Source: Cynocephalus volans
Taxonomy: Eukaryota > Chordata > Mammalia > Dermoptera > Cynocephalidae
Length of the DNA stretch: 64,000 bases
Reading direction: 5' to 3'
NCBI RefSeq assembly: GCF_027409185.1
Contig: NC_084463.1
Location: 161,239,869 to 161,303,868, forward strand
Every line of letters begins with the position of its first letter. Position 1 is the stretch's first letter. The notes beneath the pieces were generated by a model that did not search any database, was not told the origin of the DNA, and worked only from the letters and a program-made list of their open reading frames with translations. Below are positions 5,841 to 64,000 of the stretch, piece by piece. Made by a program: the position numbers and the translations under genes.

Positions 5841-5864
5841 CTGTGAAAATCTCTATGCCTCAGT

Positions 5865-10800: not shown

Positions 10801-10825
10801 GGCTGCAGGCTCAGCACTGACAACC

Positions 10826-22403: not shown

Positions 22404-25400
22404 GACAGTCATGGGAGTGAAGAGCCGTGGAACACACACACGGACAGTCACGAGAGTGAAGAGCCGTGGAACACACACACGGACAGTCACGAGAGTGAAG
22501 AGTCGTGGAAGACACACACGGACAGTCACGAGAGTGAAGAGTCGTGGAACACACACGGACAGTCACGAGAGTCAACAGCCCATGGAACACACACACGGAC
22601 AGTCACGGGAGTGACGAGCCTATGGAACACACACACGGACAGTCACGGGAGTCAAGAGCCCAAGGAACACACAATCAGACAGTCCGAGAGTAAAGAGCCC
22701 ATGGAACACATACACGGAAAGTCACGAGAGTCCAGAGCCCATGGAACACACACACGGACAGTCACGGGAGTGAAGAGCTCAAGGAACACACACACAGACA
22801 GTCGCGGGAGTGAAGAGCCCATGGAACACATACACGGACAGTCACGGGAGTCAAGAGCCATGGAACACACACACGGACAGTCACGAGAGTCCAGAGCCCA
22901 TGGAACACACACACGTACAGTCACGAGAGTGAAGAGCCATGGAACACACACAGACCGTCACGAGAGTGAGGAGCCCATGGAACACACACACGGACAGTCA
23001 CGGGAGTCAAGAGAACATGGAACACACACACGGACAGTCACGGGAGTCCAGAGCCCATGGAACACATACACGGACAGTCACGGGAGTCAAGAGCCCATGG
23101 AATACACACGGACAGTCACGGGAGTGAAGAGCCCATGGAACACACACACGGACAGTCACGGGAGTCAAGAGCCCATGGAACACACACACGGACAGTGACG
23201 GGAGTCAAGAGCCCATGGAACACACACACGGACAGTCACGGGAGTCAAGAGCCATGGAACACACACACGACAGTCACGAGAGTGAAGAGCCATGGAACAC
23301 ACACGGACAGTCACGAGAGTGAAGAGCCCATGGGATACACACACGGACAGTCACGAGAGTGAAGAGCCATGGAACACACACACGACAGTCACGAGAGTGA
23401 AGAGCCATGGAACAAACACACGGACAGTCACGAGAGTGAAGAGCCCATGGAACACACACACGGACAGTCACGAGAGTGAAGAGCCCATGGGATACACACA
23501 CGGACAGTCACGAGAGTGAAGAGCCCATGGAACACACACACGACAGTCACGAGAGTGAAAAGCCATGGAACAAACACACGGACAGTCACGAGAGTGAAGA
23601 GCCCATGGAACACACACACGGACAGTCACGAGAGTGAAGAGCCCATGGGATACACACACGGACAGTCAGGAGACTGAAGAGCCATGGAACACACGCACGA
23701 CAGTCACGAAGTGAAGAGCCATGGAACACACACACGGACTTTCACGACAATCACGAGCCCACGGAACAGACACACGACAGTCACGAGAGTGAAGAGCCAT
23801 GGAACACACACACGATAGTCAGGAGAGTGAAGAGCCCATGGGACACACACGGACCGTCACGAGAGTGAAGAGCCCATGGAACACACACACGGACAGTCAC
23901 GGGAGTGAAGAGCCCATGGAACACAAACACGGGCAGTCAACGGAGTGAATAGCCCATGGAACACACACACGACAGTCACGAGAGTGAAGAACCATGGAAC
24001 ACACACGGAGAGAACTGAAGTGAAGAGCATTGGAACACACACACGGACAGTCAGGAGAGTCACGAGCCCATGGAACAAACACACGACAGTCACGAGAGTG
24101 AAGAGCCATGGAACACACACACGACAGTCACGAGAGTGAAGAGCCATGGAACACACACTGACAGTCACAAGAGTGAAGAGCCCATGGGACACACACACGG
24201 ACAGTCACGAGAGTGAAGAGCCATGGAACACACACATGACAGTCACGATATCAAGAGCCAAGGGAACACACAGACGAACAGTCACGGGAATGACGGGCCC
24301 ATGGAACACACACACGACAGTCACGAGAGTGAAGAGCCATGGAACACACACACCACAGTCACGAAGTGAAGAGCCATGGAACACACACACGGACAGTCAC
24401 GAGAGTCACGAGCCCATGGAACACACACAAGGACAGTCACGAGAGTGAAGAGCCCATGGACACACACACGACAGTCACGATAGTCAAGAGCCCATGGAAC
24501 ACACAGACGAACAGTCACGGGAATGACGGGCCCGTGGAACACACACACGGACAGTCACGGGAATCAAGAGCCCAAGGAACACACACACGGACAGTCACAG
24601 GAGTGAAGAGCCCATGGAACACACACACGACAGTCACAAGAGTGAAGAGCCATGGAACACACACACGGACAGTCACGAGAGTGAAGAGCCCATGGAACAC
24701 ACACACGGACAGTCACGGGAGTGACGAGCCCATGGAACACACACACGGACATTCACGGGAGTAAAGAGCCCATGGAACACACACACGGACAGTCACGGGA
24801 GTCAAGAGCCCATGGAACACACACACGGACAGTCACGGGAGTCAAGAGCCCATGGAACACACACACGGACAGTCACGGGAGTCAAGAGCCATGGAGCACA
24901 CAAGACAGTCACGAGAGTGAAGAGCCCATGGGATACACAGACGGACAGTCACGAGAGTGAAGAGCCAGGGAAGACACACACGACAGTCACGAGAGTGAAG
25001 AGCTCAAGGAACACACACACGGACAGTCGCGGGAGTGAAGAGCCCATGGAACACATACACGGACAGTCACGGGAGTCAAGAGCCATGGAACACACACATG
25101 GACAGTCACGAGAGTCCAGAGCCCATGGAACACACACCCGGACAGTCACGAGAGTGAAGAGCCATGGAACACACACGGACCGTCCCGAGAGTGAAGAGCC
25201 CATGGAACACACACACGGACAGTAACGAGACTGAAGAGCCCATGGAACACACACACGGACAGTCACGGGAGTCAAGAGCCCATGGATCACACACGGACAG
25301 TCACGGGAGTGAAGAGCCCATGGAACACACACACGGACAGTCACGGGTGTCAAGAGCCCATGGAACACACACACGGACAGTCACGGGAGTCAAGAGCCCA

Positions 25401-28400
25401 TGGAACACAAACTCGGACAGTCACGGGAGTCAAGAGCCATGGAACACACACACGACAGTCAGTAGAGTGAAGAGCCATGGAACACACACGGACAGTCACG
25501 AGAGTGAAGAGCCCATGGGATACACACACTGACAGTCACGCGAGTGAAGAGCTATGGAACACACACCCGACAGTCACGAAGTGAAGAGCCATGGAACACA
25601 CACACGGATAGTCACGAGAGTCACGAGCCCATGGAACACACACACGACAGTCACGAGAGTGAAGAGCCCATGGGACACACACACGGCCAGTCTCGAGAGT
25701 GAAGAGCCATGGAACACACACATGACAGTCACGATATCAAGAGCCCATGGACACACACACCACAGTCACGATAGTCAAGAGCCCATGGAACACAGAGACG
25801 AACAGTCACGGGAATGACGGTCCCATGGAACACACACACGACAGTCACGAGAGTGAAGAGCCATGGAACACACACACGACAGTCACGAAGTGAAGAGCCA
25901 TGGAACACACACACGGACAGTCACGAGAGTCACGAGCCCATGCAACAGACACACGACAGTCACGAGAGTGAAGAGCCATGGAACACACACGGACAGTCAC
26001 GGGAGTGACGAGCCCATGGAACACAAACACGGACAGTCACCGGAGTGAATAGCCCATGGAACACACACACAGACAGTCACGAGAGTGAAGAGCCCATGGA
26101 CACACACACGACAGTCACGATAGTCAAGAGCCCATGGAACACACAGACGAACAGTCACGGTAATGACGGGCCCGTGGAACACACACACGGACAGTCACTG
26201 GAGTCAAGAGCCCAAGGAACACACACACGGACAGTCACAGGAGTGAAGAGCCCATGGAACACACACACGACAGTTACGAGAGTGAAGAGCCATGGAACAC
26301 ACACACGGACAGTCACGGGAGTGACGAGCCCATGGAACACACACACGGACATTCACAGGAGTCAAGAGCCCATGGAACACAAACACGGACATTCACGGGA
26401 GTCAAGAGCCCATGGAACACACACACGGACAGTCACGGGAGTCAAGAGCCCATGGAACACACACACGGACAGTCACGGGAGTCAAGAGCCATGGAACACA
26501 CACGGACAGTCACGAGAGTGAAGAGCCCATGGGATACACACACGGACAGTCACGAGAGTGAAGAGCCATGGAACACACACACGACAGTCACGAGAGTGAA
26601 GAGCCATGGAACACACACACGGACTGTCACGAAGGTCACGAGCCCATGGAATACACACACGACAGTCACGAGAGTGAAGAGCCATGGAACACACACACGA
26701 CAGTCACGAGAGTGAAGAGCCATGGAACACACACACGACAGTCACGAGACTGAAGAGCCCCAGGAACACACACACGGACAGTCACGAGAGTCAAGAGCCC
26801 ATGGAACACACACACGACCGTCACGAGAGTGAAGAGCCATGGAACACACACGGACAGTCACGAGAGTCAACAGCCCATGGAACACACACACGGACAGTCA
26901 CGGGATTGACGAGCCTATGGAACACACACACGGACAGTCACGGGAGTCAAGGGCCCAAGGAACACACACTCGGACAGTCACGGGAGTCAAGAGCCATGGA
27001 ACACACACGGACAGTCACGAGAGTGAAGAGCCCATGGAACACACACGGACAGTCACGAGAGTGAAGAGCCCATGGAACATATACACGGAAAGTCACGAGA
27101 GTCCAGAGCCCATGGAACACACACACGGACAGTCACGAGAGTGAAGAGCTCAAGGAACACACACACGGAGAGTCGCGGGAGTGAAGAGCTCAAGGAACAC
27201 ACACACGGACAGTCGCGGGAGTGAAGAGCACATGGAACACATACACGGACAGTCACGGATGTCAAGAGCCATGGAACACACACACGGACAGTCACGAGAG
27301 TGAAGAGCTCAAGGAACACACACACGGATAGTCGCGGGAGTGAAGAGCACATGGAACACATACACGGACACTCACGGATGTCAAGAGCCATGGAACACAC
27401 ACACGGACAGTCACGAGAGTCCAGAGCCCATGGAACTCACACGTACAGTCACGAGAGTGAAGAGCCATGGAACACACACGGACCGTCACGAGAGTGAAGA
27501 GCCCATGGAACACACACACGGACAGTCACGAGAGTGAAGAGCCCATGGAACACACACACGGACAGTCACGGGAGTCAAGAGCCCATGGAACACACACACG
27601 GACCGTCACGGGAGTGAAGAGCCCTTGTTACACACACTCGGACAGTCACGGGAGTCAAGAGCCATGGAACACACACACGGACAGTCACGGGAGTCAAGAG
27701 CCCATGGAACACACACTCGGACAGTCACGGCAGTCAAGAGCCATGGAACACACACACGACAGTCACGAGAGTGAAGAGCCATGGAACACACACGGACAGT
27801 CACGAGAGTGAAGAGCCCATGGAACACACACACGACAGTCAAGAGAGTGAAGAGCCATGGAACACACACGGACAGTCACGAGAGTGAAGAGCCATGGAAC
27901 AAACACACGGACAGTCACGAGGGTCAAGAGCTCATGGAACACACACACGACAGTCACGAGAGTGAAGAGCCATGGAACACACACACGACAGTCACGAGAG
28001 TGAAGAACCATGGGACACACGCAGACAGTCACGAGAGTGAAGAGCCCATGGGATACACACACGGACAGTCACGAGAGTGAAGAGCCATGGAACACACACA
28101 CGACAGTCACGAAGTGAAGAGCCATGGAACACACACACGGACAGTCACGAGAGTCACGAGCCCATGGAACACACACATGACAGTCACGATAGTCAAGAGC
28201 CCATGGACAAACACACGACAGTCACGATAGTCAAGAGCCCATGGAACACACAGACGAACAGTCACGGGAATGACGGGCCCATGGAACACACACACGGACA
28301 GTAACCGGAGTCAAGAGCCCAAGGAACACACACACGGACAGTCACAGGAGTGAAGAGCCCATGGAACACACACACGGACTGTCACGAGAGTCAAGAGCCC

Positions 28401-31400
28401 ATGGAACACACACACGACCGTCACAAGAGTGAAGAGCCTTGGAACACACACGGACACTCACGAGAGTAAACAGCCCATGGAACACACACACGGACAGTCA
28501 CGGGAGTGACGAGCCTATGGAACACACACACGGACAGTCACGGGAGTCAAGAGGCCAAGGAACACACACTCGGACAGTCCGAGAGTGAAGAGCCCATGGA
28601 ACACATACACGGAAAGTCACGGGAGTCAAGAGCCCATGGAACATACACACGGACAGTCACGAGAGTGAAGAGCTCAAGGAACACACACACGGACAGTCGC
28701 GGGAGTGAAGAGCCCATGGAACACATACACGGACAGTCACCGGAGTCAAGAGCCATGGAACACACACACGGACAGTCACGAGAGTGAAGAGCCCATGGAA
28801 CACACTCACGGACAGTCACGGGAGTGAAGAGCCCATGGAACACAAACACGGGCAGTCACCGGAGTGAATAGCCCATGGAACACACACACGGACAGTCAAG
28901 AGAGTGAAGAGCCCATGGACACACACACGACAGTCACGAGAGTGAAGAGCCATGGCACACACACGGAGAGAAACGAGCGTGAAAAGCCCATGGAACACAA
29001 AGAGGACAGTCACGAGAGTGAAGAGCCCATGGAACACAAACAAGGACAGTCACTGGAGTGAAGAGCCATGGAACACACACTCGACAGTCACGAGAGTGAA
29101 GAGCCATGGAACACACACGGACAGTCACGGGAGTGACGAGCCCATGGAACACAAACACGGACAGTCACCGGAGTGAATAGCCCATGGAACACACACATGG
29201 ACAGTCACGAGAGTGAAGAGCCGATGGACACACACATGACAGTCACGATATCAAGAGCTCATGGACACACACACCACAGTCACGATAGTCAAGAGCCCAT
29301 GGAACACACAGATGAACAGTCACGGGAATGACGGGCCCATGGAACACACACACGACAGTCACGAGAGTGAAGAGCCATGGAACACACAGACGAACAGTCA
29401 CGGGAATGACGGGCCCATGGAATACACACACGGACAGTCACGGGAGTCAAGAGCCCAAGAAACACACACACGGACAGTCACCGGAGTGAAGAGCCCATGG
29501 AACACACACACGACAGTCACGAGAGTGAAGAGCCCATGGAACACACACATGGACAGTCACGGGAGTGAAGAACCCATGCACACACCCACGGACAGTCACG
29601 GGAGTGACGAGCCCATGGAACAAACACACGGACATTCACGGGAGTCAAGAGCACATGGAACACACACAGGGACCGTCACGGGAGGCAAGAGCCCATGGAC
29701 CACACACACGGACAGTCACGGGAGTCAAGAGCCATGGAACACACTCGGACAGTCACGAGAGTGAAGATCTCATGGGATACACACACGGACAGTCACGAGT
29801 GTGAAGAGCTCAAGGAACACACACACGGACAGTCGCGGGAGTGAAGAGCCCATGGAACACACACACGGACAGTCACGGGAGTCAAGAGCCATGGAACACA
29901 CACACGGACAGTCACGGGAGTCAAGAGCCCATGGAACACACACACGGACAGTCACGAGTGTGAAGAGCTCAAGGAACAAACACACGGACAGTCGCGGGAG
30001 TGAAGAGCCCATGGAACACATACACGGACAGTCACGGGAGTCAAGAGCCATGGAACAGACACATGGACAGTCACGAGAGTCCAGAGCCCATGGAAGCCCA
30101 TGGAACACATACACGGACAGTCACGGGAGTCAAGAGCCATGGAACAGACACATGGACAGTCACGAGAGTCCAGAGCCCATGGAACACACACACGGACAGT
30201 CACGAGAGTGAAGAGCCATGGAACACACACGGACCGTCACGAGAGTGAAGAGCCCATGGAACACACACATGGACAGTCACGAGAGTGAAGAGCCCATGGA
30301 ACACACACACGGACAGTCACGGGAGTCAAGAGCCCATGGAACACACACTCGGACAGTCACGGGAGTCAAGAGCCAGGGAACACACACACGACAGTCACGA
30401 GAGTGAAGAGCCATGGAACACACAGGGACAGTCACGAGAGTGAAGAGCCCATGGGATACACACACGGACAGTCACGCGAGTGAAGAGCCATGGAACACAC
30501 ACACGACAGTCACGAGAGTGAAGAGCCATGGAACAAACACATGGACAGTCACGAGAGTGAAGAGTCATGGGACACACACAGACAGTCACGAGAGTGAAGA
30601 GCCATGGAACACACACACGACAGTCACGAGAGTGAAGAGCCATGGGTCACACACAGACAGTCACGAGAGTTAAGAGCCCAGGGGATACACACACGGACAG
30701 TCACGAGAGTGAAGAGCCATGGAACACACACACGACAGTCACGAAGTGAAGAGCCATGGAACACACACACGGACAGTCACGAGAGTCACGAGCCCATGGA
30801 ACAAACACACGACAGTCACGAGAGTGAAGAGCCATGAAACACACACACGACAGTCCCGAGAGTGAAGAGCCATGGAACACACACGGACCATCACGAGAGT
30901 GAAGAGCCCATGGGACACACACGGACAGTCACGAGATTGAAGAGCCATGGAACACACACATGCCAGTCACGATAACAAGAGCCCATGGACAGACACACGA
31001 CAGTCACGATAGTCAAGAGCCCATGGAACACACAGACGAACATTCACGGGAATGACGGGCCCATGGAACACACACACGACAGTCACGAGAGTGAAGAGCC
31101 ATGGAACACACACACGACAGTCACGAAGTGAAGAGCCATGGAACACACACACGACAGTCACGAAGTGAAGAGCCATGGAACACACACACGACAGTCACGA
31201 GAGTGAAGAGCCATGGGTCACACACAGACAGTCACGAGAGTGAAGAGCCCATGGGATACACACACGGACAGTCACGAGAGTGAAGAGCCATGGAACACAC
31301 ACACGGACAGTCACGAGAGTCACGAGCCCATGGAACAAACAAACGACAGTCACGAGAGTGAAGAGCCATGGAACACACACATGACAGTCACGAGAGTGAA

Positions 31401-34400
31401 GAGCCATGGAACACACACGGACAGTCACGAGAGTGAAGAGCCCATGGGACACACACACGGACAGTCACGAGAGTGAAGAGCCATGGAACACACACATGAC
31501 AGTCACGATATCAAGAGCTCATGGACACACACACGACAGTCACGATAGTCAAGAGCCCATGGAACACACAGACGAACAGTCACGGGAATGACGGGCCCAT
31601 GGAACACACACACGACAGTCACGAGAGTGAAGAGCCATGGAACACACAGACGACAGTCACGAAGTGAAGAGCCATGGAACACACACACGGACAGTCACGA
31701 GAGTCACGAGCCCATGGAACACACACACGACAGTCACGAGAGTGAAGAGCCATGGAACACACACACGACAGTCACGAGAGTGAAGAGCCATGGAACACAC
31801 AAGGACAGTCACGGGAGTGACGAGCCCATGGAACACAAACACGGACAGTCACCGGAGTGAATAGCCCATGGAACACACACATGGACAGTCACGAGAGTGA
31901 AGAGCCCATGGACACACACACGACAGTCACGATAGTCAAGAGCCCATGGAATACACAGACGAACAGTCACGAGAGTGAAGAGCCCATGGAACACACACAC
32001 GGACAGTCACGGGAGTGACGAGCCCATGGAACACACACACGACAGTCACGGGAATCAAGAGCCCAAGGAACACACACACGGACAGTCACAGGAGTGAAGA
32101 GCCCATGGAACACACACACGACAGTCACGAGAGTGAAGAGCCATGGAACACACACACGGACAGTCACGAGAGTGAAGAGCCCATGGAACACACACACGGA
32201 CAGTCACGGGAGTGACGAGCCCATGGAACACACACACGGACATTCACGGGAGTCAAGAGCCCATGGAACACACACACGGACAGTCACGGGAGTCAAGAGC
32301 CCATGGAACACACACACGGACAGTCACGGGAGTCAAGAGCCCATGGAACACACACACGGACAGTCACGGGAGTCAAGAGCCATGGAGCACACACGGACAG
32401 TCACGAGAGTGAAGAGCCCATGGGATACACAGACGGACAGTCACGAGAGTGAAGAGCCATGGAACACACACACGACAGTCACGAGAGTGAAGAGCCATGG
32501 AACACAGACACGGACAGTCACAAAGGTCACGAGCCCATGGAACACACACACGACAGTCACGAGAGTGAAGAGCCATGGACACACACACAGACAGCCACGG
32601 GAGTGAAGAGCCCATGGAACAAACACACAGACTGTCACGGGAGTCAGGAGCACAAGGAACACACGAACGGACAGTCACGGAGTTTTCGAGCCCATGGAAC
32701 ACACACACGGACAGTCACGGGAGTCAAGAGCCCAAGGAACACACACACGGACAGTCACGGGAGTGAAGAGCCCATGGAACACACACAAGGACAGTCACGA
32801 GAGTGAAGAGCCCATGGAACACACACACGGACAGTCAGAAGACTGAAGAGAACATGGAAAACACACATGGACAGTCATGGGAGTGAAGAGTCCGTGGAAC
32901 ACACACACGGACAGTCACGGGAGTCAAGAGCCATGGAACACAGACACGACAGTCACGAGAGTGAAGAGCCATGGAACACACACGGACCATCACGAGAGTG
33001 AAGAGACCATGGAACACACACACGGACAGTCACGACGTTGAAAAGCCATGGAACACACACGGACAGTCACGGGAGTGAAGAGCCCATTGAACACACACAC
33101 GGACAGTCACGGGAGTCAAGGGCCCATGGAACACACACACGGACAGTGACGGGAGTCCAGAGCCCATGGAACACACACACGGACAGTCACGGGAGTCAAG
33201 CCATGGAACACACACACGACAGTCACGAGAGTGAAGAGCCATGGAACACACACGGACAGTCACGAGAGTTAAGAGCCCATGGGATACACACACGGACAGT
33301 CACGAGAGTGAAGAGCCATGGAACAAACACACGGACAGTCACGAGAGTCAAGAGCGCATGGAACAAACACACGACAGTCACGAGAGTGAAGAGCCATGGA
33401 ACACACACACGACAGTCATGAGACTGAAGAGCCATGGGACACACACGGACAGTCACGAGAGTGAAGAGCCCATGTTATACACACACGGACAGTCAGGAGA
33501 GTGAAGAGCCATGGAACACACACACAGACAGTCACGAGAATCACGAGCCCATGGAACACACACACGACAGTCACGAGAGTGAGGAGCCATGGAACACACA
33601 CACGATAGTCAGGAGAGTGAAGAGCCCATGGGACACACACGGACCGTCACGAGAGTGAAGAGCCCATGGGACACAAACACGGACAGTCACGAGAGTGAAG
33701 AGCCCATGGAACACACTCACGGACAGTCACGGGAGTGAAGAGCCCATGGAACACAAACACGGGCAGTCACCGGAGTGAATAGCCCATGGAACACACACAC
33801 GGACAGTCAAGAGAGTGAAGAGCCCATGGACACACACACGACAGTCACGAGAGTGAAGAGCCATGGCACACACACGGAGAGAAACGAGCGTGAAAAGCCC
33901 ATGGAACACAAACAGGACAGTCACGAGAGTGAAGAGCCCATGGAACACAAACAAGGACAGTCACTGGAGTGAAGAGCCATGGAACACACACTCGACAGTC
34001 ACGAGAGTGAAGAGCCATGGAACACACACGGACAGTCACGGGAGTGACGAGCCCATGGAACACAAACACGGACAGTCACCGGAGTGAATAGCCCATGGAA
34101 CACACACATGGACAGTCACGAGAGTGAAGAGCCGATGGACACACACACGACAGTCACGAGAGTCAAGAGGCCATGGAACACACAGACGAACAGTCACGGG
34201 AATGACGGGCCCATGGAAAACACACACGGACAGTCACGGGAGTCAAGAGCCCAAGGAACACACACACGGACAGTCACCGGAGTGAAGAGCCCATGGAACA
34301 CACACACGACAGTCACGAGAGTGAAGAGCCCATGGAACACACACATGGACAGTCACGGGAGTGAAGAACCCATGCACACACACACGGACAGTCACGGGAG

Positions 34401-39600: not shown

Positions 39601-40452
39601 AGTGAAGAGCCCATGGAACACACACACGGACCGTCACGAGAGTGAAGAGCCCATGGAACACATACACGGACAGTCACGGGAGTCAAGAGCCATGGAACAC
39701 ACACATGGACAGTCACGAGAGTCCAGAGCCCATGGAACACACACACAGACAGTCACGAGAGTGAGGATCCCATGGAACACACACGGACCGTCACGAGAGT
39801 GAAGAGCCCATGGAACACACACACGGACCGTCACGAGAGTGAAGAGCCCATGGAACACACACACGGACAGTCACGGGAGTCAAGAGCCCATGGAACACAC
39901 ACGGACAGTCACGGGAGTGAACATCCCATGGAACACACACACGGACAGTCACGGGAGTCAAGAACCCAAGGAACACACACACGGACAGTCACGGGAGTCA
40001 AGAGCCCATGGAACACACACTCCGACAGTCACAGGAGTCAAGAGCCATGGAACACACACACGACAGTCACTAGAGTGAAGAGCCATGGAACACACACGGA
40101 CAGTCACGCGAGTGAAGAGCCCATGGGATACACACACGGACAGTCACGCGAGTGAAGACCCATGGAACACACACACGACAGTCACGAGAGTGAAGAGCCA
40201 TGGAACACACACACGACAGTCACGAGAGTGAAGAGCCATGGGACACACACAGACAGTAACGAGAGTGAAGAGCCCATGGGATACACACACGGACAGTCAC
40301 GAGAGTGAAGAGCCATGGAACACACACACGACAGTCACGAAGTGAAGAGCCATGGAACACACACACGGACAGTCACGAGAGTCCCGAGCCCATGGAACAC
40401 ACACACGACAGTCACGAGAGTGAAGAGCCATGGAACACACACACGACAGTCA
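36640..40452. repeat. 1,906-bp higher-order repeat, tandem pair in copy A
   Basis: Marker monomers at 36,656, 37,044 and 37,669 recur at 38,562, 38,950 and 39,575, exactly 1,906 bp on, with very few differences. Confidence 0.85.
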
Positions 40453-40467
40453 CGAGAGTGAAGAGCC

Positions 40468-41236
40468 ATGGAACACACACGGACAGTCCCGAGAGTGAAG
40501 AGCCCATGGGACACACACACGGACAGTCACGAGAGTGAAGAGCCATGGAACACACACATGACAGTCACGATATCAAGAGCCAATGGACACACACACGACA
40601 GTCACGATAGTCAAGAGCCCATGGAACACACAGACGAACAGTCATGGGAATGACGGTCCCATGGAACACACACACGACAGTCACGAGAGTGAAGAGCCAT
40701 GGAACACACACACGACAGTCACGAAGTGAAGAGCCATGGAACACACACACGGACAGTCACGAGAGTCACGAGCCCATGCAACACACACACGAGAGTCACG
40801 AGAGTGAAGAGCCATGGAACACACACACGACAGTCACAAGAGTGAAGAGCCATGGAACACACACGGACAGTCCCGAGAGTGAAGAGCCCATGGGACACAC
40901 ACACGGACAGTCACGAGAGTGAAGAGCCATGGAACACACACATGACAGTCACGATATCAAGAGCCCATGGACACACACACGACAGTCACGATAGTCAAGA
41001 GCCCATGGAACACACAGACGAACAGTCATGGGAATGACGGGCCCGTGGAACACACACACGGACAGTCACGGGAGTCAAGAGCCCAAGTAACACACACACG
41101 GACAGTCACAGGAGTGAAGAGCCCATGGAACACACACACGACCGTCACGAGAGTGAAGAGCCATGGAACACACATGGACAGTCACGAGAGTGAAGAGCCC
41201 ATGGGATACACACACGGACAGTCACGCGAGTGAAGA
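40468..41236. repeat. 384-bp higher-order repeat, two units
   Basis: The monomer order starting at 40,468 repeats at 40,852. The same 384-bp step is seen at 56,403/56,787 and 62,709/63,093. Confidence 0.75.
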
Positions 41237-49200: not shown

Positions 49201-52200
49201 CACAAACAGGACAGTCACGAGAGTGAAGAGCCCATGGAACACAAACAAGGACAGTCACTGGAGTGAAGAGCCATGGAACAGACACTCGACAGTCACGAGA
49301 GTGAAGAGCCATGGAACACACACGGACAGTCACGGGAGTGACGAGCCCATGGAACACAAACACGGACAGTCACCGGAGTGAATAGCCCATGGAACACACA
49401 CATGGACAGTCACGAGAGTGAAGAGCCGATGGACACACACACGACAGTCACGAGAGTCAAGAGGCCATGGAACACACAGACGAACAGTCACGGGAATGAC
49501 GGGCCCATGGAAAACACACACGGACAGTCACGGGAGTCAAGAGCCCAAGGAACACACACACGGACAGTCACCGGAGTGAAGAGCCCATGGAACACACACA
49601 CGACAGTCACGAGAGTGAAGAGCCCATGGAACACACACATGGACAGTCACGGGAGTGAAGAACCCATGCACACACACACGGACAGTCACGGGAGTGACGA
49701 GCCCATGGAACACACACACGGACATTCACGGGAGTCAAGAGCACATGGAACACACACAGGGACCGTCACGGGAGGCAAGAGCCCATGGAACACACACACG
49801 GACAGTCACGGGAGTCAAGAGCCCATGGACCACACACACGGACAGTCACGGGAGTCAAGAGCCATGGAACACACTCGGACAGTCACGAGAGTGAAGAGCC
49901 CATGGGATACACACACGGACAGTCACGAGTGTGAAGAGCTCAAGGAACACACACACGGACAGTCGCGTGAGTGAAGAGCCCATGGAACACATACACGGAC
50001 AGTCACGGGAGTCAAGAGCCATGGAACACACACACGGACAGTCACGGGAGTCAAGAGCCCATGGAACACACACACGGAGAGTCACGAGTGTGAAGAGCTC
50101 AAGGAACAAACACACGGACAGTCGCGGGAGTGAAGAGCCCATGGAACACATACACGGACAGTCACGGGAGTCAAGAGCCATGGAACAGACACATGGACAG
50201 TCACGAGAGTCCAGAGCCCATGGAAGCCCATGGAACACATACACGGACAGTCACGGGAGTCAAGAGCCATGGAACAGACATATGGACAGTCACGAGAGTC
50301 CAGAGCCCATGGAACACACACACGGACAGTCACGAGAGTGAAGAGCCATGGAACACACACGGACCGTCACGAGAGTGAAGAGCCCATGGAACACACACAC
50401 GGACAGTCACGAGAGTGAAGAGCCCATGGAACACACACACGGACAGTCACGGGAGTCAAGAGCCCATGGAACACACACTCGGACAGTCACGGGAGTCAAG
50501 AGCCAGGGAACACACACACGACAGTCACGAGAGTGAAGAGCCATGGAACACACAGGGACAGTCACGAGAGTGAAGAGCCCATGGGATACACACACGGACA
50601 GTCACGCGAGTGAAGAGCCATGGAACACACACACGACAGTCACGAGAGTGAAGAGCCATGGAACAAACACACGGACAGTCACGAGAGTGAAGAGTCATGG
50701 GACACACACAGACAGTCACGAGAGTGAAGAGCCATGGAACACACACACGACAGTCACGAGAGTGAAGAGCCATGGGTCACACACAGACAGTCACGAGAGT
50801 TAAGAGCCCAGGGGATACACACACGGATAGTCACGAGAGTGAAGAGCCATGGAACACACACACGACAGTCACGAAGTGAAGAGCCATGGAACACACACAC
50901 GGACAGTCACGAGAGTCACGAGCCCATGGAACAAACACACGACAGTCACGAGAGTGAAGAGCCATGAAACACACACACGACAGTCACGAGAGTGAAGAGC
51001 CATGGAACACACACGGACCGTCACGAGAGTGAAGAGCCCATGGGACACACACACGGACAGTCACGAGAGTGAAGAGCCATGGAAGACACACATGCCAGTC
51101 ACGATAACAAGAGCCCATGGACACACACACGACAGTCACGATAGTCAAGAGCCCATGGAACACACAGACGAACATTCACGGGAATGACGGGCCCATGGAA
51201 CACACACACGACAGTCACGAGAGTGAAGAGCCATGGAACACACACACGACAGTCACGAAGTGAAGAGCCATGGAACACACACACGACAGTCACGAAGTGA
51301 AGAGCCATGGAACACACACACGACAGTCACGAGAGTGAAGAGCCATGGGTCACACACAGACAGTCACGAGAGTGAAGAGCCCATGGGATACACACACGGA
51401 CAGTCACGAGAGTGAAGAGCCATGGAACACACACACGGACAGTCACGAGAGTCACGAGCCCATGGAACAAACACACGACAGTCACGAGAGTGAAGAGCCA
51501 TGGAACACACACACGACAGTCACGAGAGTGAAGAGCCATGGAACACACACGGACAGTCACGAGAGTGAAGAGCCCATGGGACACACACACGGACAGTCAC
51601 GAGAGTGAAGAGCCATGGAACACACACATGACAGTCACGATATCAAGAGCTCATGGACACACACACGACAGTCACGATAGTCAAGAGCCCATGGAACACA
51701 CAGACGAACAGTCACGGGAATGACGGGCCCATGGAACACACACACGACAGTCACGAGAGTGAAGAGCCATGGAACACACAGACGACAGTCACGAAGTGAA
51801 GAGCCATGGAACACACACACGGACAGTCACGAGAGTCACGAGCCCATGGAACACACACACGACAGTCACGAGAGTGAAGAGCCATGGAACACACACACGA
51901 CAGTCACGAGAGTGAAGAGCCATGGAACACACAAGGACAGTCACGGGAGTGACGAGCCCATGGAACACACACACGGACAGTCACGAGAGTGAAGAGCCCA
52001 TGGAACACACACACGGACAGTCACGAGAGTGAAGAGCTCAAGGAACACACACACGGACAGTCACGAGAGTGAAGAGCCATGGAAGACAGACGGACAGTTA
52101 CGAGAGTGAAGAGCCCATGGAACACACACACGGACAGTCACGAGAGTGAAGAGCCCATGGAACACACACACGGACAGTCACGAGAGTGAAGAGCTCAAGG

Positions 52201-55200
52201 AACACACACACGGACAGTCACGAGAGTGAAGAGCCCATGGAACACACACATGACAGTCACGATATCAAGAGCCCATGGAACACACAGACGAACAGTCATG
52301 GGAATGACGGTCCCATGGAACACACACACGGACAGTCACGTGTGTCAAGAGCCCAAGGAACACACACACGGACAGTCACAGGAGTGAAGAGCCATGGAAG
52401 ACAGACGGACAGTTACGAGAGTGAAGAGCCCATGGAACACACACACGGACAGTCACGAGAGTGAAGAGCCCATGGAACACACACACGGACAGTCACGGGA
52501 GTCAAGAGCCCATGGAACACACACACGGACAGTTACGAGAGTGAAGAGCCCATGGAACACACACACGGACAGTCACGAGAGTGAAGAGCCATGGAACACA
52601 CACGGACAGTCCCGAGAGTGAAGAGCCCATGGGACACACACACGGACAGTCACGAGAGTGAAGAGCCATGGAACACACACATGACAGTCACGATATCAAG
52701 AGCCCATGGACACACACACGACAGTCACGATAATCAAGAGCCCATGTTACACACAGACGAACAGTCATGGGAATGACGGTCCCATGGAACACACACACGG
52801 ACAGTCACGTGTGTCAAGAGCCCAAGGAACACACACACGGACAGTCACAGGAGTGAAGAGCCCATGGAACACACACACGACAGTCACGAAGTGAAGAGCC
52901 ATGGAACACACACACGGACTGTCACGAGAATCACGAGCCCATGGAACACACACACGACAGTCACGAGAGTGAAGAGCCATGGAACACACACACGATAGTC
53001 AGGAGAGTGAAGAGCCCATGGGACACACACGGACCGTCACGAGAGTGAAGAGCCCATGGGACACAAACACGGATAGTCACGAGAGTGAAGAGCCCATGGA
53101 ACACACACACGGACAGTCACGGGAGTTAAGAGCGCATGGAACACAAACACGGGCAGTCACCAGACTGAATAGCCCATGGAACACACACACGGACAGTCAC
53201 GAGAGTGAAGAGCCCATGGGCACACACACGACAGTCACGAGAGTGAAGAGCCATGGAACACACACGGAGAGAAACGAGCATGAAGAGCCCATGGAACACA
53301 CACACGGACAGTCACGGGAGTCAAGAGCCCAAGGAACACACACACGGACAGTCACCGGAGTGAAGAGCCCATGGAACACACACACGACAGTCACGAGAGT
53401 GAAGAGCCCATGGAACACACACAGACAGTCACGAGAGTGCAGAGCTCAAGGAACACGCACACGGACACTCGCGGGAGTGAAGAGCCCATGGAACACATAC
53501 ACGGACAGTCACGGGAGTCAAGAGCCATGGAACACACACACGGACAGTCACGGGAGTGAAGAGCCCATGGACACACACAAGACAGTCACGAGAGTGAAGA
53601 GCCATGGAAGACAGACGGACAGTTACGAGAGTGAAGAGCCCATGGAACACACACACGGACCGTCACGAGAGTGAAGAGCCCATGGAACACATACACGGAC
53701 AGTCACGGGAGTCAAGAGCCATGGAACACACACATGGACAGTCACGAGAGTCCAGAGCCCATGGAACACACACACAGACAGTCACGAGAGTGAGGATCCC
53801 ATGGAACACACACGGACCGTCACGAGAGTGAAGAGCCCATGGAACACACACACGGACCGTCACGAGAGTGAAGAGCCCATGGAACACACACACGGACAGT
53901 CACGGGAGTCAAGAGCCCATGGAACACACACGGACAGTCACGGGAGTGAACATCCCATGGAACACACACACGGACAGTCACGGGAGTCAAGAACCCAAGG
54001 AACACACACACGGACAGTCACGGGAGTCAAGAGCCCATGGAACACACACTCCGACAGTCACAGGAGTCAAGAGCCATGGAACACACACACGACAGTCACT
54101 AGAGTGAAGAGCCATGGAACACACACGGACAGTCACGCGAGTGAAGAGCCCATGGGATACACACACGGACAGTCACGCGAGTGAAGACCCATGGAACACA
54201 CACAGGACAGTCACGAGAGTGAAGAGCCATGGAACACACACACGACAGTCACGAGAGTGAAGAGCCATGGGACACACACAGACAGTAACGAGAGTGAAGA
54301 GCCCATGGGATACACACACGGACAGTCACGAGAGTGAAGAGCCATGGAACACACACACGACAGTCACGAAGTGAAGAGCCATGGAACACACACACGGACA
54401 GTCACGAGAGTCCCGAGCCCATGGAACACACACACGACAGTCACGAGAGTGAAGAGCCATGGAACACACACACGACAGTCACGAGAGTGAAGAGCCATGG
54501 AACACACACGGACAGTCCCGAGAGTGAAGAGCCCATGGGACACACACACGGACAGTCACGAGAGTGAAGAGCCATGGAACACACACATGACAGTCACGAT
54601 ATCAAGAGCCCATGGACACACACACGACAGTCACGATAGTCAAGAGCCCATGGAACACACAGACGAACAGTCATGGGAATGACGGTCCCATGGAACACAC
54701 ACACGGACAGTCACGTGTGTCAAGAGCCCAAGGAACACACACACGGACAGTCACAGGAGTGAAGAGCCCATGGAACACACACACGACAGTCACGAAGTGA
54801 AGAGCCATGGAACACACACACGGACTGTCACGAGAATCACGAGCCCATGGAACACACACACGACAGTCACGAGAGTGAAGAGCCATGGAACACACACACG
54901 ATAGTCAGGAGAGTGAAGAGCCCATGGGACACACACGGACCGTCACGAGAGTGAAGAGCCCATGGGACACAAACACGGATAGTCACGAGAGTGAAGAGCC
55001 CATGGAACACACACACGGACAGTCACGGGAGTTAAGAGCGCATGGAACACAAACACGGGCAGTCACCAGACTGAATAGCCCATGGAACACACACACGGAC
55101 AGTCACGAGAGTGAAGACCCCATGGGCACACACACGACAGTCACGAGAGTGAAGAGCCATGGAACACACACGGAGAGAAACGAGCATGAAGAGCCCATGG

Positions 55201-58200
55201 AACACACACACGGACAGTCACGGGAGTCAAGAGCCCAAGGAACACACACACGGACAGTCACCGGAGTGAAGAGCCCATGGAACACACACACGACAGTCAC
55301 GAGAGTGAAGAGCCCATGGAACACACACAGACAGTCACGAGAGTGCAGAGCTCAAGGAACACGCACACGGACACTCGCGGGAGTGAAGAGCCCATGGAAC
55401 ACATACACGGACAGTCACGGGAGTCAAGAGCCATGGAACACACACACGGACAGTCACGGGAGTGAAGAGCCCATGGACACACACAAGACAGTCACGAGAG
55501 TGAAGAGCCATGGAAGACAGACGGACAGTTACGAGAGTGAAGAGCCCATGGAACACACACACGGACCGTCACGAGAGTGAAGAGCCCATGGAACACATAC
55601 ACGGACAGTCACGGGAGTCAAGAGCCATGGAACACACACATGGACAGTCACGAGAGTCCAGAGCCCATGGAACACACACACAGACAGTCACGAGAGTGAG
55701 GATCCCATGGAACACACACGGACCGTCACGAGAGTGAAGAGCCCATGGAACACACACACGGACCGTCACGAGAGTGAAGAGCCCATGGAACACACACACG
55801 GACAGTCACGGGAGTCAAGAGCCCATGGAACACACACGGACAGTCACGGGAGTGAACATCCCATGGAACACACACACGGACAGTCACGGGAGTCAAGAAC
55901 CCAAGGAACACACACACGGACAGTCACGGGAGTCAAGAGCCCATGGAACACACACTCCGACAGTCACAGGAGTCAAGAGCCATGGAACACACACACGACA
56001 GTCACTAGAGTGAAGAGCCATGGAACACACACGGACAGTCACGCGAGTGAAGAGCCCATGGGATACACACACGGACAGTCACGCGAGTGAAGACCCATGG
56101 AACACACACACGACAGTCACGAGAGTGAAGAGCCATGGAACACACACACGACAGTCACGAGAGTGAAGAGCCATGGGACACACACAGACAGTAACGAGAG
56201 TGAAGAGCCCATGGGATACACACACGGACAGTCACGAGAGTGAAGAGCCATGGAACACACACACGACAGTCACGAAGTGAAGAGCCATGGAACACACACA
56301 CGGACAGTCACGAGAGTCCCGAGCCCATGGAACACACACACGACAGTCACGAGAGTGAAGAGCCATGGAACACACACACGACAGTCACGAGAGTGAAGAG
56401 CCATGGAACACACACGGACAGTCCCGAGAGTGAAGAGCCCATGGGACACACACACGGACAGTCACGAGAGTGAAGAGCCATGGAACACACACATGACAGT
56501 CACGATATCAAGAGCCAATGGACACACACACGACAGTCACGATAGTCAAGAGCCCATGGAACACACAGACGAACAGTCATGGGAATGACGGTCCCATGGA
56601 ACACACACACGACAGTCACGAGAGTGAAGAGCCATGGAACACACACACGACAGTCACGAAGTGAAGAGCCATGGAACACACACACGGACAGTCACGAGAG
56701 TCACGAGCCCATGCAACACACACACGAGAGTCACGAGAGTGAAGAGCCATGGAACACACACACGACAGTCACAAGAGTGAAGAGCCATGGAACACACACG
56801 GACAGTCCCGAGAGTGAAGAGCCCATGGGACACACACACGGACAGTCACGAGAGTGAAGAGCCATGGAACACACACATGACAGTCACGATATCAAGAGCC
56901 CATGGACACACACACGACAGTCACGATAGTCAAGAGCCCATGGAACACACAGACGAACAGTCATGGGAATGACGGGCCCGTGGAACACACACACGGACAG
57001 TCACGGGAGTCAAGAGCCCAAGTAACACACACACGGACAGTCACAGGAGTGAAGAGCCCATGGAACACACACACGACCGTCACGAGAGTGAAGAGCCATG
57101 GAACACACATGGACAGTCACGAGAGTGAAGAGCCCATGGGATACACACACGGACAGTCACGCGAGTGAAGAGCTATGGAACACACACACGACAGTCACGA
57201 AGTGAAGAGCCATAGAACACACACACGGATAGTCACGAGAGTCACGAGCCCATGGAACACACACACGACAGTCACGAGAGTGAAGAGCCCATGGAACACA
57301 CACACGGACAGTAACGAGACTGAAGAGCCCATGGAACACACACACGGACAGTCACGGGAGTCAAGAGCCCATGGAACACACACGGACAGTCACGGGAGTG
57401 AAGAGCCCATGGAACACACACACGGACAGTCACGGGAGTCAAGAGCCCATGGAACACACACGGACAGTCACGGGAGTGAAGAGCCCATGGAACACACACA
57501 CGGACAGTCACGAGAGTGAAGAGCCCATGGACACACACACGACAGTGACGATAGTCAAGAGCCCATGGAACACACAGACGAACAGTCACGGGAATGACGG
57601 GCCCATGGAACACACACACGGACAGTCACGTGTGTCAAGAGCCCAAGGAACACACACACGGACAGTCACAGGAGTGAAGAGCCCATGGAACACACACACG
57701 ACAGTCACGAAGTGAAGAGCCATGGAACACACACACGGACTGTCACGAGAATCACGAGCCCATGGAACACACACACGACAGTCACGAGAGTGAAGAGCCA
57801 TGGAACACACACACGATAGTCAGGAGAGTGAAGAGCCCATGGGACACACACGGACCGTCACGAGAGTGAAGAGCCCATGGGACACAAACACGGATAGTCA
57901 CGAGAGTGAAGAGCCCATGGAACACACACACGGACAGTCACGGGAGTTAAGAGCGCATGGAACACAAACACGGGCAGTCACCAGACTGAATAGCCCATGG
58001 AACACACACACGGACAGTCACGAGAGTGAAGAGCCCTTGGGCACACACACGACAGTCACGAGAGTGAAGAGCCATGGAACACACACGGAGAGAAACGAGC
58101 ATGAAGAGCCCATGGAACACACACTCGGACAGTCACGGGAGTCAAGAGCCCATGGAACACACACACGACAGTCACGAGAGTGAAGAGCCCATGGAACACA

Positions 58201-59150
58201 CACAGACAGTCACGAGAGTGCAGAGCTCAAGGAACACGCACACGGACACTCGCGGGAGTGAAGAGCCCATGGAACACATACACGGACAGTCACGGGAGTC
58301 AAGAGCCATGGAACACACACACGGACAGTCACGGGAGTGAAGAGCCCATGGACACACACAAGACAGTCACGAGAGTGAAGAGCCATGGAAGACAGACGGA
58401 CAGTTACGAGAGTGAAGAGCCCATGGAACACACACACGGACAGTCACGAGAGTGAAGAGCCCATGGAACACACACACGGACAGTCACGAGAGTGAAGAGC
58501 TCAAGGAACACACACACGGACAGTCACGAGAGTGAAGAGCCCATGGAACACACACATGACAGTCACGATATCAAGAGCCCATGGAACACACAGACGAACA
58601 GTCATGGGAATGACGGTCCCATGGAACACACACACGGACAGTCACGTGTGTCAAGAGCCCAAGGAACACACACACGGACAGTCACAGGAGTGAAGAGCCA
58701 TGGAAGACAGACGGACAGTTACGAGAGTGAAGAGCCCATTGAACACACACACGGACAGTCACGAGAGTGAAGAGCCCATGGAACACACACACGGACAGTC
58801 ACGGGAGTCAAGAGCCCATGGAACACACACACGGACAGTTACGAGAGTGAAGAGCCCATGGAACACACACACGGACAGTCACGAGAGTGAAGAGCCATGG
58901 AACACACACGGACAGTCCCGAGAGTGAAGAGCCCATGGGACACACACACGGACAGTCACGAGAGTGAAGAGCCATGGAACACACACATGACAGTCACGAT
59001 ATCAAGAGCCCATGGACACACACACGACAGTCACGATAATCAAGAGCCCATGTTACACACAGACGAACAGTCATGGGAATGACGGTCCCATGGAACACAC
59101 ACACGGACAGTCACGTGTGTCAAGAGCCCAAGGAACACACACACGGACAG
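43211..59150. repeat. superrepeat copy B of the array
   Basis: Collinear with 27,690-43,210. Long stretches show only isolated substitutions. It contains about 640 bp around 49,860-50,500 that copy A lacks at the corresponding place. At about 59,150 the order switches to that found at about 52.85 kb, starting a further partial copy that reaches the end of the window. Confidence 0.8.
52575..56387. repeat. 1,906-bp higher-order repeat, tandem pair in copy B
   Basis: The same pair as in copy A, displaced by 15,935 bp: markers at 52,979 and 54,885. Confidence 0.85.
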
Positions 59151-62100
59151 TCACAGGAGTGAAGAGCCCATGGAACACACACACGACAGTCACGAAGTGA
59201 AGAGCCATGGAACACACACACGGACTGTCACGAGAATCACGAGCCCATGGAACACACACACGACAGTCACGAGAGTGAAGAGCCATGGAACACACACACG
59301 ATAGTCAGGAGAGTGAAGAGCCCATGGGACACACACGGACCGTCACGAGAGTGAAGAGCCCATGGGACACAAACACGGATAGTCACGAGAGTGAAGAGCC
59401 CATGGAACACACACACGGACAGTCACGGGAGTTAAGAGCGCATGGAACACAAACACGGGCAGTCACCAGACTGAATAGCCCATGGAACACACACACGGAC
59501 AGTCACGAGAGTGAAGAGCCCATGGGCACACACACGACAGTCACGAGAGTGAAGAGCCATGGAACACACACGGAGAGAAACGAGCATGAAGAGCCCATGG
59601 AACACACACACGGACAGTCACGGGAGTCAAGAGCCCAAGGAACACACACACGGACAGTCACCGGAGTGAAGAGCCCATGGAACACACACACGACAGTCAC
59701 GAGAGTGAAGAGCCCATGGAACACACACAGACAGTCACGAGAGTGCAGAGCTCAAGGAACACGCACACGGACACTCGCGGGAGTGAAGAGCCCATGGAAC
59801 ACATACACGGACAGTCACGGGAGTCAAGAGCCATGGAACACACACACGGACAGTCACGGGAGTGAAGAGCCCATGGACACACACAAGACAGTCACGAGAG
59901 TGAAGAGCCATGGAAGACAGACGGACAGTTACGAGAGTGAAGAGCCCATGGAACACACACACGGACCGTCACGAGAGTGAAGAGCCCATGGAACACATAC
60001 ACGGACAGTCACGGGAGTCAAGAGCCATGGAACACACACATGGACAGTCACGAGAGTCCAGAGCCCATGGAACACACACACAGACAGTCACGAGAGTGAG
60101 GATCCCATGGAACACACACGGACCGTCACGAGAGTGAAGAGCCCATGGAACACACACACGGACCGTCACGAGAGTGAAGAGCCCATGGAACACACACACG
60201 GACAGTCACGGGAGTCAAGAGCCCATGGAACACACACGGACAGTCACGGGAGTGAACATCCCATGGAACACACACACGGACAGTCACGGGAGTCAAGAAC
60301 CCAAGGAACACACACACGGACAGTCACGGGAGTCAAGAGCCCATGGAACACACACTCCGACAGTCACAGGAGTCAAGAGCCATGGAACACACACACGACA
60401 GTCACTAGAGTGAAGAGCCATGGAACACACACGGACAGTCACGCGAGTGAAGAGCCCATGGGATACACACACGGACAGTCACGCGAGTGAAGACCCATGG
60501 AACACACACAGGACAGTCACGAGAGTGAAGAGCCATGGAACACACACACGACAGTCACGAGAGTGAAGAGCCATGGGACACACACAGACAGTAACGAGAG
60601 TGAAGAGCCCATGGGATACACACACGGACAGTCACGAGAGTGAAGAGCCATGGAACACACACACGACAGTCACGAAGTGAAGAGCCATGGAACACACACA
60701 CGGACAGTCACGAGAGTCCCGAGCCCATGGAACACACACACGACAGTCACGAGAGTGAAGAGCCATGGAACACACACACGACAGTCACGAGAGTGAAGAG
60801 CCATGGAACACACACGGACAGTCCCGAGAGTGAAGAGCCCATGGGACACACACACGGACAGTCACGAGAGTGAAGAGCCATGGAACACACACATGACAGT
60901 CACGATATCAAGAGCCCATGGACACACACACGACAGTCACGATAGTCAAGAGCCCATGGAACACACAGACGAACAGTCATGGGAATGACGGTCCCATGGA
61001 ACACACACACGGACAGTCACGTGTGTCAAGAGCCCAAGGAACACACACACGGTCAGTCACAGGAGTGTAGAGCCCATGGAACACACACACGACAGTCACG
61101 AAGTGAAGAGCCATGGAACACACACACGGACTGTCACTAGAATCACGAGCCCATGGAACACACACACGACAGTCACGAGAGTGAAGAGCCATGGAACACA
61201 CACACGATAGTCAGGAGAGTGAAGAGCCCATGGGACACACACGGACCGTCACGAGAGTGAAGAGCCCATGGGACACAAACACGGATAGTCACGAGAGTGA
61301 AGAGCCCATGGAACACACACACGGACAGTCACGGGAGTTAAGAGCGCATGGAACACAAACACGGGCAGTCACCAGACTGAATAGCCCATGGAACACACAC
61401 ACGGACAGTCACGAGAGTGAAGAGCCCATGGGCACACACACGACAGTCACGAGAGTGAAGAGCCATGGAACACACACGGAGAGAAACGAGCATGAAGAGC
61501 CCATGGAACACACACACGGACAGTCACGGGAGTCAAGAGCCCAAGGAACACACACACGGACAGTCACCGGAGTGAAGAGCCCATGGAACACACACACGAC
61601 AGTCACGAGAGTGAAGAGCCCATGGAACACACACAGACAGTCACGAGAGTGCAGAGCTCAAGGAACACGCACACGGACACTCGCGGGAGTGAAGAGCCCA
61701 TGGAACACATACACGGACAGTCACGGGAGTCAAGAGCCATGGAACACACACACGGACAGTCACGGGAGTGAAGAGCCCATGGACACACACAAGACAGTCA
61801 CGAGAGTGAAGAGCCATGGAAGACAGACGGACAGTTACGAGAGTGAAGAGCCCATGGAACACACACACGGACCGTCACGAGAGTGAAGAGCCCATGGAAC
61901 ACATACACGGACAGTCACGGGAGTCAAGAGCCATGGAACACACACATGGACAGTCACGAGAGTCCAGAGCCCATGGAACACACACACAGACAGTCACGAG
62001 AGTGAGGATCCCATGGAACACACACGGACCGTCACGAGAGTGAAGAGCCCATGGAACACACACACGGACCGTCACGAGAGTGAAGAGCCCATGGAACACA

Positions 62101-62692
62101 CACACGGACAGTCACGGGAGTCAAGAGCCCATGGAACACACACGGACAGTCACGGGAGTGAACATCCCATGGAACACACACACGGACAGTCACGGGAATC
62201 AAGAACCCAAGGAACACACACACGGACAGTCACGGGAGTCAAGAGCCCATGGAACACACACTCCGACAGTCACAGGAGTCAAGAGCCATGGAACACACAC
62301 ACGACAGTCACTAGAGTGAAGAGCCATGGAACACACACGGACAGTCACGCGAGTGAAGAGCCCATGGGATACACACACGGACAGTCACGCGAGTGAAGAC
62401 CCATGGAACACACACACGACAGTCACGAGAGTGAAGAGCCATGGAACACACACACGACAGTCACGAGAGTGAAGAGCCATGGGACACACACAGACAGTAA
62501 CGAGAGTGAAGAGCCCATGGGATACACACACGGACAGTCACGAGAGTGAAGAGCCATGGAACACACACACGACAGTCACGAAGTGAAGAGCCATGGAACA
62601 CACACACGGACAGTCACGAGAGTCCCGAGCCCATGGAACACACACACGACAGTCACGAGAGTGAAGAGCCATGGAACACACACACGACAGTC
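58881..62692. repeat. 1,906-bp higher-order repeat, third tandem pair
   Basis: Markers at 59,285 and 61,191. The pair is displaced 6,306 bp from the copy-B pair, so the 6.3-kb block has itself been duplicated. Confidence 0.85.
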
Positions 62693-64000
62693 ACGAGAGT
62701 GAAGAGCCATGGAACACACACGGACAGTCCCGAGAGTGAAGAGCCCATGGGACACACACACGGACAGTCACGAGAGTGAAGAGCCATGGAACACACACAT
62801 GACAGTCACGATATCAAGAGCCAATGGACACACACACGACAGTCACGATAGTCAAGAGCCCATGGAACACACAGACGAACAGTCATGGGAATGACGGTCC
62901 CATGGAACACACACACGACAGTCACGAGAGTGAAGAGCCATGGAACACACACACGACAGTCACGAAGTGAAGAGCCATGGAACACACACACGGACAGTCA
63001 CGAGAGTCACGAGCCCATGCAACACACACACGAGAGTCACGAGAGTGAAGAGCCATGGAACACACACACGACAGTCACAAGAGTGAAGAGCCATGGAACA
63101 CACACGGACAGTCCCGAGAGTGAAGAGCCCATGGGACACACACACGGACAGTCACGAGAGTGAAGAGCCATGGAACACACACATGACAGTCACGATATCA
63201 AGAGCCCATGGACACACACACGACAGTCACGATAGTCAAGAGCCCATGGAACACACAGACGAACAGTCATGGGAATGACGGGCCCGTGGAACACACACAC
63301 GGACAGTCACGGGAGTCAAGAGCCCAAGTAACACACACACGGACAGTCACAGGAGTGAAGAGCCCATGGAACACACACACGACAGTCACGAGAGTGAAGA
63401 GCCATGGAACACACACACGGACAGTCACGAAGGTCACGAGCTCATGGAACACACACACGACTGTCACGAGAGTGAAGAGCCATGGACACACACACAGACA
63501 GCCACGGGAGTGAAGAGCCCATGGACCACACACACAGACTGTCACGGGAGTCAAGAGCCCAAGGAACACACGAACGGACAGTCACGGAGGTGTCGAGCCC
63601 ATGGAACACACACACGGACAGTCACGGGAGTCAAGAGCCCAAGGAACACACACACGGACAGTCACGGGAGTGAAGAGCCCATGGAACACACACACGGACA
63701 GTCACGAGAGTGAAGAGGCCATGGAACACACACACGGACAGTCAGAAGACTGAAGAGAACATGGAACACACACATGGACAGTCACGGGAGTGAAGAGCCC
63801 GTGGAACACACACACGGACAGTCACGGGAGTCAAGAGCCATGGAACACAGACACGACAGTCACGAGAGTGAAGAGCCATGGAACACACACGGACCATCAC
63901 GAGAGTGAAGAGACCATGGACCACACACACGGACAGTCATGGGAGTAAAGAGCCCGTGGAACACACACACAGCCAGTTACGGAAGTGAAGAGCCATGGAA

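Follow-up and report, generated by a model that had tools for sequence, protein, structure and literature searches.

A 40-bp minisatellite of at least 41.6 kb, probably of recent growth, beside exon 2 of colugo CATSPER1 and most likely within intron 1

We examined a stretch of 64,000 nucleotides from the colugo Cynocephalus volans (assembly GCF_027409185.1, contig NC_084463.1, positions 161,239,869 to 161,303,868 of the forward strand), referred to here as the window. CATSPER1, a male-germline gene, is needed for sperm hyperactivation and male fertility in both mouse and man. Eleven of its exons, 2 to 12, can be spliced together on the minus strand of the window between 21603 and 14810, yielding an open frame of 374 residues followed by a stop codon (Table 1). 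The exon edges were set by hand; AG acceptors precede every exon, the ten internal donors are all GT, and the acceptor of exon 2 has retained its pyrimidine tract. A preliminary description of this DNA had named the gene as CATSPER1, and the match of exon 2 to mouse CatSper1 (7eeb_A, E 9e-24) supports that identification, as do the protein searches: among the best 120 of 173 and the best 120 of 252 matches listed, the named proteins were mostly CATSPER1, with a few that were hypothetical or otherwise named. The spliced protein also contains an Ion_trans domain (E 7.8e-37). Full-length CATSPER1 queries in tblastn recovered exons 2 to 11 in the matches shown, which is ten of the eleven; exon 12, at 27 bp, is too short for tblastn and was placed by frame and splice site. 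The highest identity among the matches listed was to the Sunda colugo, Galeopterus variegatus (98% over 81% of the query). The two colugo proteins differ at 5 of 304 residues and were grouped with 100/100 support, the terminal branch being 0.0015 for the window protein and 0.013 for Galeopterus. Within intron 6 there is a GC-rich minisatellite with a unit of 16-33 bp (18950-19317), which adjoins exon 6 (19309-19452) and extends slightly into its end.

Table 1. Coordinates of CATSPER1 exons, the partial duplicate, the tandem array and its internal duplications in the window
Feature	Position	Strand	Evidence or remark
CATSPER1 exon 2	21391..21603	-	acceptor ttctag, donor gtaaga; mouse CatSper1 match, splicing, tblastn
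CATSPER1 exon 3	20520..20633	-	splicing, tblastn
CATSPER1 exon 4	19967..20114	-	splicing, tblastn
CATSPER1 exon 5	19560..19651	-	splicing, tblastn
CATSPER1 exon 6	19309..19452	-	splicing, tblastn
CATSPER1 exon 7	18738..18801	-	splicing, tblastn
CATSPER1 exon 8	18495..18567	-	splicing, tblastn
CATSPER1 exon 9	18325..18385	-	splicing, tblastn
CATSPER1 exon 10	16514..16589	-	splicing, tblastn
CATSPER1 exon 11	14988..15102	-	splicing, tblastn
CATSPER1 exon 12 with stop codon	14810..14836	-	frame and splice site
Partial duplicate of exon-2 region	5103..9435	+	91-95% identical pieces; exon 2 in two pieces, first array units
Six array units closing the partial duplicate	9199..9435	+	TRF, alignment
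~40-bp tandem array (minisatellite/VNTR), 1,068 units	22403..64000, reaches window end	.	TRF, wrap-around alignment, 19-mer count, shuffles
~15.5-15.9-kb tandem duplication, first copy	27666..43196	+	31 mismatches in 15,294 aligned bases
~15.5-15.9-kb tandem duplication, second copy	43197..59154	+	block comparison
6.3-kb tandem duplication, first copy	52056..58361	+	6 mismatches in 5,022 bp; 98.33% over 5,630 bp
6.3-kb tandem duplication, second copy	58362..64000	+	near-identical to 63383
1,906-bp tandem duplication, two copies	36633..40444	+	36633-38538 and 38539-40444; 5 mismatches

The exon-2 region also has an older, incomplete copy in the window. The sequence at 5103-9435 duplicates 17442-22637 in the same orientation, is without the parent's 18190-20768 (exons 3-9), and sits upstream of a cystatin gene. 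An insertion of ~1.76 kb (6538-8296) interrupts the exon 2 that it carries. The insertion has similar short AT-rich ends, with a TTAATTTTTT stretch at both, and a SINE-like stretch (7028-7197) inside; it is probably a retrotransposed element. The duplicate closes with six array units, beyond which lies sequence found once in the first 22.8 kb of the window. Since the duplicate carries these units, the left edge of the array predates the duplication. If neutral sites change at ~2.2e-9 per site per year, the ~5% divergence between copy and parent suggests that the duplication is probably about 10 million years old. The preliminary description had spoken of a single-copy fertility gene; the broken copy of the exon-2 region means that the locus is not fully single-copy.

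Several other elements lie in this left flank. Cystatin-domain exons (Pfam PF00031) occur upstream on the plus strand at 10790-11663; from its position and sequence we take this gene to be CST6, in which case the order of neighbors is the same as in human. Exchange between the partial duplicate and its parent could delete the cystatin gene together with part of CATSPER1. Four mutually related tRNA-like SINEs are found at 252-417, 1230-1318, 4830-5087 and 7028-7197, and three of them reach the Rfam threshold for tRNA (264-335, 1233-1302 and 4845-4917). One contains 2.5 tandem monomers of 74 bp, as judged by TRF. Exact probes with short SINE motifs of carnivores, primates, rodents, cattle, horse and pig had no match, and an assignment of these elements to a bat family was discarded in view of the 98% protein identity to Galeopterus variegatus. 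They presumably belong to the colugo CYN-SINE family.

On the other side of exon 2, TRF reports a single array with a period of 40, 1067.8 copies, 86% matches and 4% indels. It runs head to tail and uninterrupted for 41,598 bp up to the end of the window, and its far end lies outside the 64 kb, so that its length of at least 41.6 kb is a lower bound. The preliminary description had reported at least this much of one 40-bp minisatellite from 22404 onward, beginning about 800 bp upstream of exon 2. Both points were confirmed, as the TRF start lies 1 bp away and 799 bp separate the array from the 5' edge of exon 2 at 21603 on the minus strand. The consensus unit given by TRF is GGACAGTCACGAGAGTGAAGAGCCCATGGAACACACACAC. 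Wrap-around alignment resolved 1,068 units, 286 of them distinct, with lengths of 30-50 bp (36-40 bp in 1,064 of the 1,068). Their mean identity to the consensus is flat along the array, at 0.906-0.921 per 2-kb bin. Exact matches to a 19-mer of the unit number 348 in the window, all of them on the plus strand, compared to none in 100 dinucleotide shuffles; 346 occurrences fall in the array and two in the closing units of the partial duplicate, and within the window the 19-mer is restricted to these two places. With 40-bp units repeated head to tail on one strand, the array is a minisatellite or VNTR, a class whose units measure roughly 10-100 bp. The same alignment revealed no foreign insertion in the 41.6 kb, and no unit exceeds the consensus length by over 10 bp. 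A search of the array sequence in viral contigs, of a kind that may omit near records, returned no matches. The observed/expected ratio of CpG is 0.69 in the array, which holds ~2,100 CpGs, vs. 0.32 in the left flank. In a test for germline hypomethylation, transitions at the four CpG positions of the unit averaged 0.040 of distinct variants, vs. 0.023 at other C/G positions.

The array has a block structure, which the preliminary description had missed. We located block pairs of 1 kb or more by exact-seed chaining, and 33,629 of the 41,598 array bases proved to lie in blocks that recur, nearly identical, at another place in it. There are 15 such pairs, 99.23-99.97% identical (99.5-99.97% in 14 of them), including pairs of 8,675 bp with 3 mismatches, 5,022 bp with 6, 3,549 bp with 8 and 1,957 bp with 3. 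The pairs reflect nested tandem duplications of 1.9, 6.3 and 15.5-15.9 kb, in each of which the first copy is followed by the second (Table 1). The largest block directly abuts its copy and differs from it also by indels of 641, 118, 117, 23 and 2 bp, and the second copy of the 6.3-kb duplication matches the first at 98.33% over the 5,630 bp up to where the window stops. The longest series of identical units to recur in the array comprises 68 units, compared to 2-3 in 20 shuffles of the unit order. Adjacent units, in contrast, are identical barely more often than their frequencies predict (14 pairs vs. 11.1 expected, with a longest identical run of 2), and therefore recent slippage of single units has left no trace in the array. 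The natural reading is that the array grew by repeated unequal exchange or by replication-based copying of kilobase-scale blocks. At the neutral rate used above, a block divergence of 0.2% would correspond to roughly half a million years, and 41.6 kb free of insertions beside a SINE-bearing flank fits either youth or rapid turnover. Given the near-identical block duplications, we predict that the array varies in length among individuals.

We also looked for exon 1, using as queries 12 CATSPER1 protein models from 11 species, divided where exon 2 begins. The stretch ahead of this junction spans 201-445 residues and is rich in histidine in ten of the 12 models (14.8-27.9%), the other two having 4.0% and 5.2%. 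Eleven of the 12 models have similar residues just before the junction (QFQKRKT and variants), pointing to constraint on the end of exon 1. Searched with these exon-1 parts by tblastn, the whole 64-kb window gave no exon 1 (best E 0.39 when filtered for low complexity and 0.30 unfiltered). His-rich frames number 359 in the window, and the 20 listed all lie within a CA-repeat at 20236-20536 on the plus strand. In agreement with the preliminary description, then, these searches found no exon 1 between exon 2 and the array. Because exon 2 flanks the array on one side and the window yielded no exon 1, the latter would most simply lie beyond the array, which would place the array in intron 1. The array does lie on the exon-1 side of exon 2; that it is inside intron 1, and that the gene must be transcribed through more than 42 kb of repeat, as the preliminary description further claimed, is what we infer from that position.

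Upstream of exon 2 its reading frame stays open until a stop at 21787 and includes in-frame ATGs at 21682 and 21676, and a transcript without exon 1 is possible. In each protein search the 120 matches listed include one colugo entry, the Galeopterus variegatus model, a predicted protein of 368 residues whose contig measures no more than 142 kb. It has neither exon 1 nor exon 2. Its N-terminus begins MTLPSLREAAQKDIAEV and, when compared with the frames of the window, resembles translated duplicate or intron-2 DNA; apparently it is a mis-predicted, spurious exon. The missing exons would be expected if the array had broken an older assembly, and the model is not evidence for a gene lacking exons 1 and 2.

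If the array is transcribed as part of intron 1, its composition bears on how it would be processed. Read on the sense strand of CATSPER1, the unit is rich in (GT), and AG is absent from its consensus. AG occurs at 3.4/kb in the array compared to 78.1/kb in the left flank, and AG-free stretches reach 1.7 kb. There are 841 runs of (GT)4 or longer on this strand, and neither AATAAA nor ATTAAA occurs on it anywhere in the array. Acceptor-like sites are likewise scarce (0.43/kb vs. 3.5/kb in the left flank), and few cryptic acceptors are therefore to be expected in a transcript of the array. Donor-like sites, scored as 7 or more of the 9 consensus positions, are about as frequent in the array as in the flank (2.55/kb vs. 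2.05/kb), although none reaches 8. We considered whether the orientation of the array shields the gene from cryptic splicing and found no support for the idea. By the same simple scans the antisense strand is AG-rich (113.9/kb), yet it has no acceptor-like sites and fewer donor-like sites (0.34/kb), so that there is no clear advantage to the present orientation. Selection against AG in the variants was similarly unsupported: among the 143 distinct 40-bp units of the 286, AG-creating variants were not depleted (37 hits vs. 45.3 +/- 22.5, p = 0.44). The scarcity of AG thus comes from the founder unit. Our preferred reading is of a VNTR that is passive and tolerated; the results lend no support to a tuning role, possible though it is. 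At a transcription rate of ~2 kb/min, 42 kb would take ~20 min, and the effect of the array on transcription time is probably modest.

Large arrays of this general kind have been described elsewhere, and we compared ours with three of them. In human, an intron of CACNA1C holds TRACT, a VNTR with a 30-bp unit that spans 3 to more than 30 kb (PMC13131567, a preprint). Its authors ascribe its growth to perfect single-unit tracts, the longest, of 26 units, being in the shortest of the long alleles, and they link long alleles to lower CACNA1C in fibroblasts and to lower levels of the lncRNA CACNA1C-IT3 in testis (PMC13131567). Both arrays are large minisatellites in or beside a calcium-channel gene, with many unit variants and tens of kilobases in length. 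However, the colugo array has a 40-bp unit and at least 41.6 kb, belongs to a different gene and a different mammalian order, and grew by kilobase blocks with a longest identical run of 2 rather than through perfect tracts. A second comparison is with human arrays of more than 10 kb, described as classical VNTRs, such as a 40-bp VNTR at 1p36.32 (52.9 kb, with higher-order repeats), a 38-bp one at 19p12 (49.8 kb) and a 34-bp one at 13q34 (listed at 47.8 kb) (PMC2588610). These resemble the colugo array in unit size, total length (48-53 kb) and some higher-order structure, but they are other loci with other sequences. The preliminary description had called a satellite-scale array in such a gene unusual. 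It is real and striking, but human arrays with such units and of such total length are on record (PMC2588610). The colugo array is long yet falls within the range known for VNTRs; what sets it apart is that it lies next to a sperm-channel gene and that it grew in kilobase blocks. A third comparison is with the Drosophila Y-linked fertility genes kl-3 and kl-5, whose gigantic introns are filled with megabases of satellite (PMC6508621). Here too a tandem repeat lies in an intron of a male-fertility gene, putatively so in the colugo, although kl-3 and kl-5 carry a simple Y satellite on the megabase scale and the colugo a minisatellite of at least 41.6 kb next to CATSPER1. The fly genes have a dedicated expression programme (PMC6508621), of which the colugo sequence gives no sign. 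Searches of one literature collection found no report on CATSPER1 with a minisatellite or on colugos with satellite DNA. Judged by title and start of abstract, none of the papers listed on CATSPER1 with a tandem repeat or intron 1 deals with this array; of those listed on the genome assemblies of the two colugo species none concerns the locus, and of those on tRNA-derived SINEs none is about a colugo SINE.

Taken together, we are probably dealing with a passive VNTR, recently enlarged in blocks, that lies in the 5' part of CATSPER1 in the colugo, intron 1 being its likeliest place. Its near edge would already have been in place when the exon-2 region was duplicated, and repeated unequal exchange or replication-based copying of 2-16-kb blocks would have brought it to satellite scale, part of this growth falling within roughly the last million years. 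The array would be transcribed and then spliced out with intron 1 as passive DNA, tolerated through its few splice-acceptor-like sites and its freedom from AATAAA and ATTAAA hexamers. Alternatively, the array may have severed the ancestral exon 1, with a new promoter in the ~800 bp before exon 2 and a protein without the His-rich N-terminus. The window without an exon-1 match, the open frame and ATGs upstream of exon 2, and the Galeopterus entry among the matches listed, which is without true exons 1 and 2, are all in line with this. However, that entry may reflect a gap in assembly or annotation, given the length of its contig and its seemingly mis-predicted N-terminus, and the retained acceptor and pyrimidine tract of exon 2, along with the similarity of the pre-junction residues among models, argue against such a loss. 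We regard a severed exon 1 as unlikely. We think it more unlikely still that the array is real but its assembled length wrong, whether over-expanded or a mosaic of haplotypes. We worked from the assembly sequence, and long near-identical blocks, such as the 8,675-bp pair, are places where an assembler can err. Against this, 31 substitutions and five indels separate the two ~15.5-kb blocks, differences that a simple assembly duplication would not create; the number of distinct units (286) and the variety of block boundaries also argue against it, and ~18 kb of array would be left even if all three block duplications were removed.

Least probable, in our view, is that the array has been selected for, as a long (GU)-rich intron that slows or times CATSPER1 in spermatocytes in the manner of the fly Y fertility introns. 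CATSPER1 is a male-germline gene, and the sense strand of the array combines abundant (GT)4+ runs with few AGs and no polyadenylation hexamer. The kl-3 and kl-5 introns, for their part, are satellite-filled, transcribed and in need of dedicated RNA-binding proteins (PMC6508621). Yet the AG-creating variants bear no mark of selection, the recent block growth suggests that length is loosely kept, and the ~20 min of transcription estimated above is little beside the roughly 90 h given there for differentiation of fly spermatocytes (PMC6508621). A bolder reading would have CATSPER1 transcribed through a satellite-scale, still growing and (GU)-rich intron 1 array, poor in AG and polyadenylation hexamers, whose length varies among individuals and tunes output in the testis, as a small-scale mammalian counterpart of the fly satellite introns. 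This we consider doubtful.

The array is of interest in several respects. It may account for the published colugo model without true exons 1 and 2. Its nested kilobase-scale duplications cleanly record how a minisatellite grew by large exchange rather than by slippage of units. A recent array of more than 41 kb beside intact exons would also open a direct way to ask how heavy a repeat load a sperm gene can bear.
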